From: Erysipelotrichaceae bacterium
Lineage (GTDB): Bacteria > Bacillota_I > Bacilli_A > Erysipelotrichales > Erysipelotrichaceae
Length of the DNA: 48,506 nt
NCBI GenBank assembly: GCA_017432545.1
Contig: JAFRJA010000001.1
Span: 1 to 48,506 of the forward strand
Direction: 5' to 3'
Part shown: positions 35,490 to 41,327 of the stretch, one piece after another
Layout: the number at the start of each line of letters is the position of its first letter
How positions within the stretch are numbered: position 1 is the stretch's first letter
Translations under genes and position numbers: made by a program
Notes under the pieces: generated by a model
The model's input: the letters and a program-made list of their open reading frames with translations, nothing else
The model's database searches: none
What the model was told of the DNA's origin: nothing

Positions 35490-37112
35490 TTATTCGTAAT
35501 GGTTGATATTTACTGATAAGTAGAACAAGTAACCCTGGAGACGATTTACGAAACCTTCAGCATTCTTGTTGGCGTCAACCTGTTCACCAGACAGGATAAC
35601 AGTATCAATATTGCCGGCTTCATATTCCATCAGAGCAGTCTGAGTATCTTCAAGAACACGGAAGACAACTTTCTTAGCTGTACCTGCTGCTTCATAATCA
35701 GAAGCGAAGTAGTACTTGTCGTTAGCCTTCAGTTCATATGAATAACCAGGAGTCCAAGAATCAAGGATGTACGGACCAGAGCTGAGTACTGTCGTAGCAC
35801 TTGTCGCATACTGATCGCCCTGAGCATCGATGAATTCCTTGTTGATAGCGAAGCAGCTCGGGAATGCCAAGCAGCCCAGGAAGATACCATTTGGTTTTTC
35901 AAGAGTTACCTTGAAGGTCTTCTCATCAACAGCTTCCCAGCTCTTGGCGAGTAATACGTCAGAGATCCACCAGCTGTAATCAGAAGCCAGTTCTTCAGAG
36001 ATCAGTCTGTCCCAAGAATCTACGAAGTCCTGAGCAGTTACATTTCTGACAACGTTGCCGTCATGGTCTACCCATACAGCATCGTCTCTGATCTTGAAGG
36101 TGTAAACTGTACCGTCTTCAGACATCTCATGGCTTTCAGCCAGATCATATTTCCAGTTACCATCTTTATCCAGTTCTGTTAAACCAGACATGAACATTGT
36201 TTCAGCAATGAAGGAAGTACCGTCAGTTGCGAACTGGTTATCCAGATAGATGATATCGGTATTGGTTACTAATGTCGTAGAATCCTTACCGACGATATGA
36301 CGATAGTTATCAACAGCTGCAGAGTGGAATTCGATGCCGGAGATTTCCGGTCTGATGATCATAGCACCACCAGCCTGGAAGACAGGAACGATACCGAAGT
36401 CTTTCGAAACGAGAACCTTTTCAGCCTCGAGGAACTTCTGCCATCTTTCATCCATATCAGTTGTAGCTTCTGCATCTTCAACCAGCTTGTCATATTCAGC
36501 AGAGTTGTATCTGCCGGAGTTGTTTGAAGTGTTATAGCTTACATACAGATCCATGTAAGTCTGAGGATCGGCATAGTCAGGGCCCCAACGAGTCAAGGCA
36601 ACCTGATAATCACCATTATCCATCAGCTGCAGTCTTTCTTTCTTCTGCTTAGAAACAAGATTGACCTTGAAACCAACTTCTTCGAGATAGTAAGCAATCT
36701 GCTCAGCAGCCTTGATTACTGAATCACCTTCGTTAGTACCATAGAGCAGATCAACAGTTAATTCTTTCTTGCCTAACTCTTCACAAGCCTTGGCATAGAA
36801 GTCCTTAGCCTGATCAACGTCATAAGCAACAACGCTGCCCTGGTCTTCACGGAAGTCAGCACCAGTCGAAGGATTGCCGGCGAGCTGGAAAGGAATGATA
36901 CCTTCAGCTGCAACAGATCCATCGTTCAATGATTTCGCAAGCGATACTCTATCGATTGCATAGGACATTGCTTTTCTAACATTTTCGTTCTGGAAAATAA
37001 CGACATCTGCACCGCCGTCATCGCCACCGCCGTCGTTTCCGCCGCCGTTGCCGCCACCTGAGCAACCGACCAGAATGAGTAATGCTAATAAAATCGCTAA
37101 TAGCTTTTTCAT
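35490..37112 (-). CDS. oppA: Circularly permuted oligopeptide-binding lipoprotein OppA
   Basis: 540 residues: lipoprotein signal (LLILVGC, lipidated Cys17), a Gly/Asp/Asn linker (18-36), then the halves of an SBP_bac_5 protein in reversed order. Residues 38-273 match the usual C-terminal half: FQNENVRKAMSYAIDR, which normally lies near residue 300, through RYNSAEYDKLVEDAE and FGIVPVFQAGGAMIIRPEISG. Residues 285-540 match the usual N-terminal half: SGLTELDKDGNWKYDLAESH, EMSEDGTVYTFKIRDDAVW, TAQDFVDSWDRLI, LSSGPYILDSW, ending LFYLSVNINHYE. The last residues would normally run straight into FQNENVRKA. The lipid anchor is thus attached to lobe II. The reading frame is intact, with GGGAGG upstream and a consensus promoter. 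OppBCDF downstream look normal. Confidence 0.93.
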   Translation of the reverse strand: MKKLLAILLALLILVGCSGGGNGGGNDGGGDDGGADVVIFQNENVRKAMSYAIDRVSLAKSLNDGSVAAEGIIPFQLAGNPSTGADFREDQGSVVAYDVDQAKDFYAKACEELGKKELTVDLLYGTNEGDSVIKAAEQIAYYLEEVGFKVNLVSKQKKERLQLMDNGDYQVALTRWGPDYADPQTYMDLYVSYNTSNNSGRYNSAEYDKLVEDAEATTDMDERWQKFLEAEKVLVSKDFGIVPVFQAGGAMIIRPEISGIEFHSAAVDNYRHIVGKDSTTLVTNTDIIYLDNQFATDGTSFIAETMFMSGLTELDKDGNWKYDLAESHEMSEDGTVYTFKIRDDAVWVDHDGNVVRNVTAQDFVDSWDRLISEELASDYSWWISDVLLAKSWEAVDEKTFKVTLEKPNGIFLGCLAFPSCFAINKEFIDAQGDQYATSATTVLSSGPYILDSWTPGYSYELKANDKYYFASDYEAAGTAKKVVFRVLEDTQTALMEYEAGNIDTVILSGEQVDANKNAEGFVNRLQGYLFYLSVNINHYE

Positions 37113-37143
37113 TAAGAATCCTCCCTAATTTTTTATAACATTA

Positions 37144-37172
37144 ATCTTATGCCAAATGAAAATGCTTGTCAA
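37144..37172 (-). promoter_or_regulatory. Consensus promoter of oppA
   Basis: Minus-strand TTGACA (37167-37172, perfect), a 17-base spacer and TAAGAT (37144-37149) lie about 32 bases before the oppA start. GGGAGG provides the ribosome site. It is the best promoter in the window. Confidence 0.85.
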
Positions 37173-37200
37173 TTATTTTTGTTAATAATTTACATTTCAA

Positions 37201-39701: not shown

Positions 39702-40353
39702 TAAACCTCTTTTCCAATTGCTTAACCAGAGAGGTAAGCACTAAAGTCAGCAGCAGATAGATCCCGGCAATGATGAATAAAGGCTGCCAGGAAAGATATT
39801 TGTTGGCCAGAAGGACTCTGGTATACATCAGTTCGTACAACATGAATGATCCGGCCATGGAAGTCTCCTTGATCATGGCGATATATTCATTGGCTAAAGC
39901 CGGTAAGATATTCTTTATCGCCTGTGGTAAGACGATCTTGGTCATCGTATGGGAAGCAGACATGCCCAAAGAACGCGCTGCCTCCGTCTGACCATAATCG
40001 ACCGAATTGATACCGCCTCTGATGATCTCAGAAACGTATGCTGAAGAGTTCATGATCAAAGCGATCAGAACGTATACTTCCTTATCGACATTATTCAAAA
40101 CCGGAATAGCGATCGGAATAAAGAAATAGGCGATATACATCTGCACCAGTAAAGGTGTTCCCCTCAGCACATTGACATAGACCTGAGCGATACCCGTGAC
40201 GATTTTGTTTTTGGATAAAGCCATGAACGCCACGAGCGTACCCAATATCGAGCCCAGAGATACGGCAATGAACGCATAACGCAGTGTTCCTAACGTACCT
40301 TTGAGAAAGATCGGCCAGTATTGAATAAAGACATCAATAATACTGGGACCCAT
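39688..40353 (-). CDS. Polar amino-acid ABC transporter permease
   Basis: 221 residues of the HisM/GlnP family with about five membrane helices. It begins IIDVFIQYWPIFLKGTLGTL and contains the family phrase YVNVLRGTPLLVQMYIAYF, and the EAA-type coupling loop YGQTEAARSLGMSASHTMTK. One permease gene only, so a homodimer is expected. The start follows the binding protein stop after two bases. Domain order is normal, in contrast to its binding protein. Confidence 0.95.
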   Translation of the reverse strand: MGPSIIDVFIQYWPIFLKGTLGTLRYAFIAVSLGSILGTLVAFMALSKNKIVTGIAQVYVNVLRGTPLLVQMYIAYFFIPIAIPVLNNVDKEVYVLIALIMNSSAYVSEIIRGGINSVDYGQTEAARSLGMSASHTMTKIVLPQAIKNILPALANEYIAMIKETSMAGSFMLYELMYTRVLLANKYLSWQPLFIIAGIYLLLTLVLTSLVKQLEKRFSASD

Positions 40354-40355
40354 TT

Positions 40356-41327
40356 TTAATTATTCTCCAGCGCAACGATCTGGTCTTCAACATACATCTG
40401 CTGTAAAGAAGAAGCCTGGGCAATGATGTGTTTACCGACAAAGTCTTCAAGGCTCTTGTACTGATCAGCCTGATCAGCCGGAACGATCAGAGTGTGGAAC
40501 GTGACATCATCATCACCGATATAACCGGTAGAAAGTTCGAATGCTTCGGCTCTGTCAGCCTTCCAGCCAAAACCCGAGAAAGCCATATCGACTTTACCTG
40601 TATCAACAGCCGTCAAGACCGCATTGAAATCCATCGTTTCGATCTTTAATTTGACACCGAGGCAGTCAGCCACGAATTTCGCCAGCATCATTTCACTGCC
40701 GTAAACAACGCCTTCTTCCGTAACGAATTCAGCTGCCGGATAGTCTGGCGAAGTTGCGATTACCAACACGCCGTTATCAAGAACTTTCTTCAAGACACCA
40801 TCAGCCTTGCTCAGATCAACAGTCGGTTTCTCCAAGTTTGCAGTATCAAGCAGATAAGTATAGGTATCATCAATGATCGCATTGTTGTAGATCGGAGTAT
40901 CACCGACTACCTTCAAAGCAGCCTCATCTTCCGTACCGGACTGGATCTTGGCAATTGCCGTCCACAGTCTGTAATAACCGTTGTCATTGGCATACTTGAT
41001 GACGGTATTTGCTGCATCCATCAGAGAAGTCTCACCTTTCTTGGCAGCCGCAACATTACCTTCATAATCACCATACATCGTCAGATCGAAATTGATTCCG
41101 CTCATCGCAAACTGTCCATCAGACTGATCGACATAGTTCTGCGCTGTCGTACCATCAAGCGCGATCGCATCACACTTGCCCGTCGATAAAGCCAGGATCG
41201 CCTGATCAAGTGTATTGACCAGTTCAAGTTCCGTCTTCTTGGAACCTGAGTTGTCCTCTTTCTTTGCACAACCGACTAAAGCACATAACATTAATACAGA
41301 TAATAATATAATTAATAATTTCTTCAT
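40356..41327 (-). CDS. Circularly permuted amino-acid-binding lipoprotein (SBP_bac_3)
   Basis: 323 residues: lipoprotein signal (CALVGC, lipidated Cys20), a short linker, then family SBP_bac_3 segments in reversed order. Residues 33-127 match the usual C-terminal part: NTLDQAILALSTGKCDAIAL (the hinge region with the ligand-binding Asp), GNVAAAKKGETSLMDAANTV and NDNGYYRLW. A roughly 50-residue linker (128-175) follows. Residues 176-323 match the usual N-terminal part: LKKVLDNGVLVIATSPDYPA, AKFVADCLGVKLKIETMDF, ALTAVDTGKVD-type repeat of lobe I, and SLEDFVGKHIIAQASSLQQ, which normally leads into TLDQAILAL. The break lies in lobe II, as in OppA. Frame, ribosome site and T-box control are intact. 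Substrate is probably arginine or another cationic amino acid, judged only from the riboswitch. Confidence 0.93.
   Translation of the reverse strand: MKKLLIILLSVLMLCALVGCAKKEDNSGSKKTELELVNTLDQAILALSTGKCDAIALDGTTAQNYVDQSDGQFAMSGINFDLTMYGDYEGNVAAAKKGETSLMDAANTVIKYANDNGYYRLWTAIAKIQSGTEDEAALKVVGDTPIYNNAIIDDTYTYLLDTANLEKPTVDLSKADGVLKKVLDNGVLVIATSPDYPAAEFVTEEGVVYGSEMMLAKFVADCLGVKLKIETMDFNAVLTAVDTGKVDMAFSGFGWKADRAEAFELSTGYIGDDDVTFHTLIVPADQADQYKSLEDFVGKHIIAQASSLQQMYVEDQIVALENN

Follow-up and report, generated by a model that had tools for sequence, protein, structure and literature searches.

Swapped halves in two neighbouring binding lipoproteins and likely recurrent circular permutation of importer binding proteins in Erysipelotrichaceae

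A stretch of 48,506 nucleotides from an Erysipelotrichaceae bacterium (assembly GCA_017432545.1, contig JAFRJA010000001.1, positions 1 to 48,506; hereafter the window) encodes side by side two substrate-binding proteins (SBPs) of ATP-binding cassette (ABC) importers, an OppA-like lipoprotein of the SBP_bac_5 family and an amino-acid-binding lipoprotein of the SBP_bac_3 family, both of which we take to belong to the type II fold class. The locus raises the question whether the halves of both chains are truly swapped and, if so, whether these are isolated events or a recurrent feature of the lineage, a group of gut bacteria not yet cultured. The reversed half order of both lipoproteins is confirmed here. 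Beyond this, we hold with good confidence that the two are half-swapped behind an intact signal peptide, with a likely normal fold and mode of binding and an anchor predicted on lobe II, that they are two of six likely independent in-place permutations, and that in at least one OppA the normal order has likely been restored.

Each gene forms a single open frame on the minus strand, in which a signal peptide with lipobox is followed by the former C-terminal half and then by the former N-terminal half. In the OppA-like protein (35490-37112, 540 aa), translation places the signal peptide and lipobox (LVGC, Cys17) at 37062-37112, the former C-terminal half (domain III and the old C-terminus) now comes first (36285-37007) and the former N-terminal half second (35493-36284). 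Positions 212-367 of the SBP_bac_5 profile precede positions 3-210 in one stop-free frame (E 3.3e-26 and 7.6e-39), the family score (218.3 bits against a curated cut-off of 32.4) being split over two segments that are not in canonical order, and alignment with Bacillus anthracis OppA (6npo) pairs residues 33-266 with 300-533 and residues 282-519 with 39-279. In the amino-acid-binding protein (40356-41327, 323 aa), the translated signal peptide runs to lipobox Cys20 (LVGC; 41268-41327), followed by the former C-terminal part, i.e. the remainder of lobe II and the old C-terminus (40875-41237, its border to the next part lying within about 15 residues either way), and, as placed by alignments and model, by the former N-terminal extension, lobe I and the first strand-helix unit of lobe II (40359-40874). 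Residues 31-124 align with 144-233 of 4h5f (the weak half, E 0.005) and residues 180-317 with 6-142; the swapped order was also seen against 4ymx and, strongly, against close normal-order orthologues. Residues 188-271 score 67.2 bits for SBP_bac_3 (curated cut-off 26.4), again out of canonical order, and a weaker Phosphonate-bd match (35 bits, cut-off 27) overlaps this segment. For either protein, both halves are thus homologous to one normal protein, their order is reversed and the whole domain is kept, as in a circular permutation. The original prediction, made from the sequence alone, had described both neighbours as permuted in the same way, with the lipid anchor at the cut in lobe II, and the permutation stands.

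The two proteins likely adopt the fold of ordinary members of their families and bind as these do; AlphaFold2 modelling gave predicted local distance difference test scores of 85.6 and 87.9 and predicted template modelling scores of 0.76 and 0.82. Both halves of the OppA model superposed on solved OppA-type structures (1.4 Å for 5kzt, 2.0 Å for 3o6p), and the amino-acid-binding model matched solved structures mainly over residues 173-321, of which 178-321 fit ArgBP and 4h5f. None of the matches listed for the permuted OppA model paired it over its full length with one solved chain, though such a chain may exist.

Could the swap be an artefact of assembly or annotation? The permuted genes all reside in draft genomes, many of them metagenome-assembled genomes (MAGs), yet the swapped order recurs in 169 of 240 listed homologous protein clusters and in at least 53 genomes, including a contig of 561,684 bases, and we give this explanation practically no credence. 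Among the best 120 homologues listed for each protein, 58 were swapped and 62 normal for OppA (4 of the 58, being partial, were excluded from trees), and 111 were swapped, the window's own included, and 9 normal for the SBP_bac_3 protein; because so many homologues share the order, a chance swap is excluded. Trees of these proteins retained 63 of 116 and 86 of 120 rows once near-copies had been removed. The ratio of nonsynonymous to synonymous substitution (dN/dS) was 0.06-0.15 in seven permuted pairs compared to 0.09-0.12 in three normal pairs; a further, eighth permuted pair had reached saturation, and synonymous distances of 1.8 to 2.6 make three of the ten values rough. In addition, at 76 alignment columns of OppA (18 permuted and 27 normal rows) and 45 of the amino-acid-binding protein, a single residue is shared by 95% or more of the permuted rows and likewise of the normal ones. 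Since the order is conserved, dN/dS is low and conserved columns are shared with the normal forms, the permuted genes are constrained by purifying selection and presumably working. The proteins most likely keep the usual substrate site of their family, and for peptide binding by the OppA-like protein the shared columns are only suggestive.

In each of the 21 loci examined, the gene immediately before OppB, C, D and F is OppA, in permuted form in 14 and in normal form in 7, and normal-order orthologues occupy the same operon slot in relatives, some of them within the same genus. A doubled-query alignment, which finds a rotation without an assumed cut, was run on 46 OppA frames; 45 were kept, 17 with the cut of the window protein (type 1), one with another cut (genome G144) and 27 in normal order, while the OppA of G150b, which looked rotated only through a broken frame, was removed from the trees. 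Three gains emerge from the tree of the rotated binding proteins and, in agreement, from that of OppBCDF: one in the genus clade of the window, which includes ruminant-gut MAGs named Oscillospiraceae; a second in the group of G122, G133, G138, G105 and G112, sister to the normal G132 (support 100/100); and a third in G144, which lies among normal proteins and is 81% identical to the normal G107. In approximately unbiased (AU) tests, a single clade of the 17 type-1 permutants was rejected (p 4e-10 for the SBP, 7e-45 for OppBCDF), ruling out a single origin of permuted OppA. The permuted Opp operons of the Oscillospiraceae-named MAGs (L120, L121, L122 and L124), at 78-82% identity, would owe their presence there to transfer or mis-binning.

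These data also bear on the possibility that a few old permutations were spread by horizontal transfer of whole operons, mimicking recurrence. The occurrence of permuted operons in MAGs of another name would fit such a spread, as would the extra permuted SBP in the amino-acid operons of G086 and G098. However, it predicts that all permutants of a family fall together, which the AU tests reject for OppA; moreover, the cuts differ (G144 and a Dpp-like protein from type 1, and the fusion protein C219 from the amino-acid-binding protein; see below), the G122 and G144 groups have normal proteins as their closest relatives, and the OppBCDF tree matches that of the SBP. We regard this explanation as improbable.

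One OppA appears to have travelled the opposite way. That of G189 has normal order and is nested within the permuted clade in both trees: in that of the SBP it groups with G167 and G002 (95/85) within a clade supported at 100/98, and in that of OppBCDF the corresponding values are 100/97 and 100/99. A clade of the 12 permutants without G189 was rejected by AU tests (p 0.013 for the SBP, 0.0003 for OppBCDF; these values are slightly generous, because the choice of group was made in part with the first tree already in view). It is therefore likely from the trees that at least one OppA returned to normal order, which the original prediction had not foreseen; the alternative, several extra gains with the same cut in close relatives, is less simple. 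Replacement of the operon was discarded as the cause, the OppBCDF tree giving the same nesting. In a larger protein set, trees of either half place four proteins (P0041, P0043, P0044 and P0045) within the permuted clade. Two points count against reading more into these cases: a second return (P0045) could not be separated from the first (AU p 0.22), and the joint of the nested normal proteins measures 13 residues, a length also found in 4 of 58 normal proteins (14 others have 12), so that joint length is not diagnostic of a return.

The amino-acid operon likewise accommodates both forms. In 24 loci we found 27 binding proteins, 15 permuted and 12 normal; the permuted copy of G098 comes after the ATPase, and all others precede both permease and ATPase. 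G086 and G098 each combine one normal and one permuted SBP with a single permease and a single ATPase, in differing gene orders (L174 and L175), and normal SBPs serve the operon in G097, G119, G116, G083, G059 and others. The permuted proteins form one clade of 15 (95/91), adjoined by the normal proteins of G097, G119, G116 and G083. The tree of the operon partners weakens this picture, as it is poorly resolved and does not place the permuted group on one side of a branch.

Two further kinds of permuted protein were found, a fusion family and a Dpp-like protein. In the protein C219 of the same assembly, an SBP_bac_3 domain cut at the start of lobe II is fused to a permease; C80, also of this assembly, has the same order and a separate permease gene. 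Of the 20 loci inspected, 19 bore out the C219 order; the remaining one (L167, in G122) has an in-frame stop and an unconfirmed order, and G122 is counted through its OppA. As in GlnP-type permeases with fused substrate-binding domains, the SBP_bac_3 domain or domains lie ahead of the permease, but each binding domain of the C219 family reads C-part (B) then N-part (A), and the three two-domain members checked (L163, L170 and L171; 742-773 aa) read B-A-B-A-permease. P0288, a GlnP-like protein of 738 aa, shows an unbroken SBP_bac_3 match across 167-383. The Dpp-like protein, found in G059 and G182, is cut at the G144 site yet only about 25% identical to G144. Together with the three gains of OppA and that of the amino-acid-binding protein, these bring the number of likely gains in Erysipelotrichaceae to six, the Dpp-like, amino-acid and C219 kinds being likely independent by their distance and cut sites. 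Two observations temper this account: the translation of the L171 fusion protein holds no lipobox, so that a lipid tether is not universal in the fusion kind, and, because the assembly is large (3.4 Mb) and slightly contaminated (5.29%), C219 and C80 may stem from a different cell than the window contig.

Where are the chains cut? The six cuts are confined to two places of similar topology, at or close to where lobe II begins, and none lies in lobe I, with lobe and domain boundaries placed as we presume them to lie. In OppA type 1 and C219/C80 the cut sits where the chain first passes into lobe II, and in G144, the Dpp-like pair and the amino-acid-binding protein it sits slightly further on, just before a lobe II strand. 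In the window, this puts the OppA cut at the start of domain III and the amino-acid cut about one strand-helix unit inside lobe II. The claim that both are cut within lobe II is therefore right for the amino-acid-binding protein and needs refinement for OppA, which is cut at the crossing itself, while the broader proposal of independent permutations at equivalent topological positions, recurring and conserved in one lineage, is likely correct. With cuts at these places, the N-terminus, usually with its lipobox, comes to stand ahead of lobe II. Canonical OppA (6npo, 5kzt, 8are) is of the same family and has the same operon partners, and its anchor presumably sits on lobe I; the OppA of the window differs in chain order, and its lipid anchor is predicted to have moved from lobe I to lobe II. 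Six of six cuts would fall in lobe II by chance with a probability of about 0.006 (lobe II making up about 42-43% of the chain), an estimate made post hoc.

As for the route, we infer that the gene itself was rearranged, most simply by tandem copying and trimming of the outer halves, or else by an equivalent re-joining of the old termini, because in the clearest cases the two halves share their nearest normal relative and the flanking sequence is preserved. The halves agree in this way in G144 and in the G122-group members tested, four out of five, for which a chimera of two different parents is not supported; by eye, the intergenic sequence 3' of the G144 gene, before OppB, also resembles that of the normal G107. 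Several results stand in the way of a firmer statement. For the OppA clade of the window and for the amino-acid-binding protein, several normal proteins are about equally near, half by half. Intermediates with duplicated halves, for which the original prediction had advised a search, were found neither for OppA nor for the amino-acid-binding protein; the only duplicated-half forms encountered were the B-A-B-A-permease proteins, which may be later duplications. Similarly, the flanks (up to 400 bases; upstream reach only 2 bases for G112 and 172 for G110) of 15 permuted OppA genes, of G189 and of 15 amino-acid genes held no half-gene remnants in a scan at E 1, in which the sole match below 0.01 was the neighbouring normal SBP of G086 and the others spanned 6-35 residues (E 0.035-0.99). 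With no intermediate and no flank remnants, the duplication route is put forward as a conjecture. Tandem normal-order copies, possible starting points for a permutation, were seen for OppA in G125 (L112) and for the amino-acid SBP in G143 (L176). The old termini are joined by few extra residues, so that swaps would be easily tolerated. Export, lipidation and folding of the permuted protein should then proceed normally, and, tethered through lobe II, it should deliver its substrate to an unchanged importer.

A permuted protein of one of the four kinds was found in at least 53 of 272 genomes of the family and at least 25 of 36 genomes of the genus, all 53 belonging to three genera. These are lower bounds, as the survey for the Dpp-like kind covered only the genus, and partial permuted-looking matches in G184 and G148 were left out. 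Such numbers speak against two recent, isolated events. In this assembly, whose size and contamination mean that the ten may not all come from one cell, four of the ten SBP_bac_3 and SBP_bac_5 proteins found are permuted, the other six having been judged by unbroken profile matches. Across the 36 genomes of the genus, 35 of which had a match, a profile survey of SBP_bac_5 found 11 of 73 genes or fragments reversed, compared to 0 of 82 in 26 genomes of a neighbouring family (Fisher p 0.00016, descriptive only, since the surveyed genes are related). Two surveys of 344 genomes of the phylum returned full-length permuted matches only from G000 and G002 (OppA) and G000 (amino-acid-binding protein), hence none outside the genus, although matches passing the cut-offs came from just 19 and 13 genomes, and other cuts or distant permutants would be missed. 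No reversed pair occurred among the SBP_bac_1 (PF01547) and Peripla_BP_4 (PF13407) matches listed for the 36 genus genomes, partial matches not having been examined, and many SBP_bac_3 and SBP_bac_5 proteins of the lineage have normal order. The suggestion of a general feature of the lineage is thus not supported: of the four families surveyed, permuted proteins were found only in SBP_bac_3 and SBP_bac_5. A candidate fifth permuted SBP on contig C105 was dismissed, as it matches only over residues 1-53, mostly signal peptide; judging by its sequence and neighbours, we take it to be of BMP type. Frames of 2702, 3131, 3542 and 2997 aa (G169:C56, G169:C55, G160:C8 and G000:C211, respectively) contain a match to a sugar-type binding-protein profile.

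Permuted binding proteins as such are already known. OpuAC of Bacillus subtilis aligns through both halves of our permuted SBP_bac_3 model, a likeness of topology between families. Its family, which we take to be PF04069, is other than SBP_bac_3 and was absent from the Pfam matches of the window proteins at E 0.001. Glycine-betaine-binding OpuAC and molybdate-binding proteins are described, at less than 24% identity, as permuted relative to each other in a comparison of structures (CPSARST, PMC2395249). The glucose-binding lipoprotein TpMglB-2 (Tp0684) of Treponema pallidum, designated 'Type Ic/Cluster Bc', is a natural circularly permuted and membrane-tethered ABC binding protein (PMC4990184). 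It has a type I sugar-binding fold, occurs in treponemes and Gram-positives and has part of its N-lobe strands moved (PMC4990184), whereas the window proteins are of the SBP_bac_5 and SBP_bac_3 peptide and amino-acid families, do not belong to Type Ic/Cluster Bc, and are permuted repeatedly and in orthologous slots. Neither recurrence nor return is described for the TpMglB-2 type in the portion of that paper available to us (PMC4990184), and the available portions of two further papers (PMC2861598, PMC9732360) contain nothing on permuted binding proteins. Our search, confined to the open-access literature, with subscription papers lying outside its scope, found no account from this lineage of a permuted protein of the OppA or SBP_bac_3 type. 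What is new here are the recurrence, the orthologous slots and the likely return.

Is the position of the tether selected? Its permutation was suggested by the authors of the TpMglB-2 study to be a possible adaptation to tethering (PMC4990184), and selection for anchoring on lobe II, whereby the tether suits docking to the permease or the envelope and such rearrangements are kept, would accord with this idea, with the recurrence of similar cut sites in two families and with long conservation at a dN/dS of about 0.1. Against this stand the likely return of G189, the normal orthologues with the same partners, the presence of both forms in one operon and the L171 fusion protein devoid of a lipobox, and we entertain such selection only tentatively. 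Neutral drift, in which the folds tolerate permutation since the old termini are close, the lineage rearranges its genes often and the position of the tether is irrelevant, is a serious possibility that falls short of being probable: it would account for normal and permuted orthologues in one slot, for the few residues needed to join the old termini, for the likely reversion of G189 and for the two forms beside one permease and ATPase in G086 and G098, but it explains less readily why six of six cuts lie at or near the start of lobe II, even as a post hoc count, and why no reversed pair appears among the SBP_bac_1 and Peripla_BP_4 matches listed for the genus. From these comparisons, the likely return and the co-existing forms argue against strong selection, and the repeated cut sites argue for some constraint. 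That permutation acts as a recurrent, reversible switch, the gene being re-cut in place at one of two equivalent sites where lobe II begins so that the tether moves between lobes, with the substrate site, permease and ATPase unchanged and the outcome selected for tether geometry, seems doubtful to us.

Natural permutation is usually inferred between distant relatives, and what it does for the protein can only be guessed. In the present case, one and the same operon occurs in related species with a normal, a permuted or an apparently restored SBP, and these matched natural pairs allow one to ask how swaps arise, whether chain order affects folding and export, and whether it matters for handing the substrate to the importer which lobe bears the anchor. 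They also call for caution in annotation: local profile matches name the permuted genes correctly and hide the swap.

The two importer operons of the window lie side by side on the minus strand, the amino-acid type followed by the oligopeptide type. The former comprises a T-box leader (41445-41656; Rfam RF00230, 123.2 bits), the SBP_bac_3 gene, a permease (39688-40353; BPD_transp_1), an ATPase (38952-39701; ABC_tran) and an M14 zinc carboxypeptidase (37260-38942; Pfam). In most relatives examined, an M14 carboxypeptidase gene likewise adjoins the SBP, permease and ATPase genes, and G086 and G098 have a second M14 gene upstream. The oligopeptide operon comprises the SBP_bac_5 gene, the permeases OppB (34328-35263; Pfam and homology) and OppC (33312-34325) and the ATPases OppD (32204-33301) and OppF (31279-32211). 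As had been predicted, the permeases and ATPases are ordinary; for the amino-acid permease and ATPase, OppB and the M14 peptidase this is read from Pfam, and for OppC, OppD and OppF only from homology to relatives within the operon. Elsewhere in the window, a match to the Rfam RNA DUF3800-XI (47124-47171, minus strand, 56.9 bits) lies directly ahead of an open reading frame at 46419-47117.

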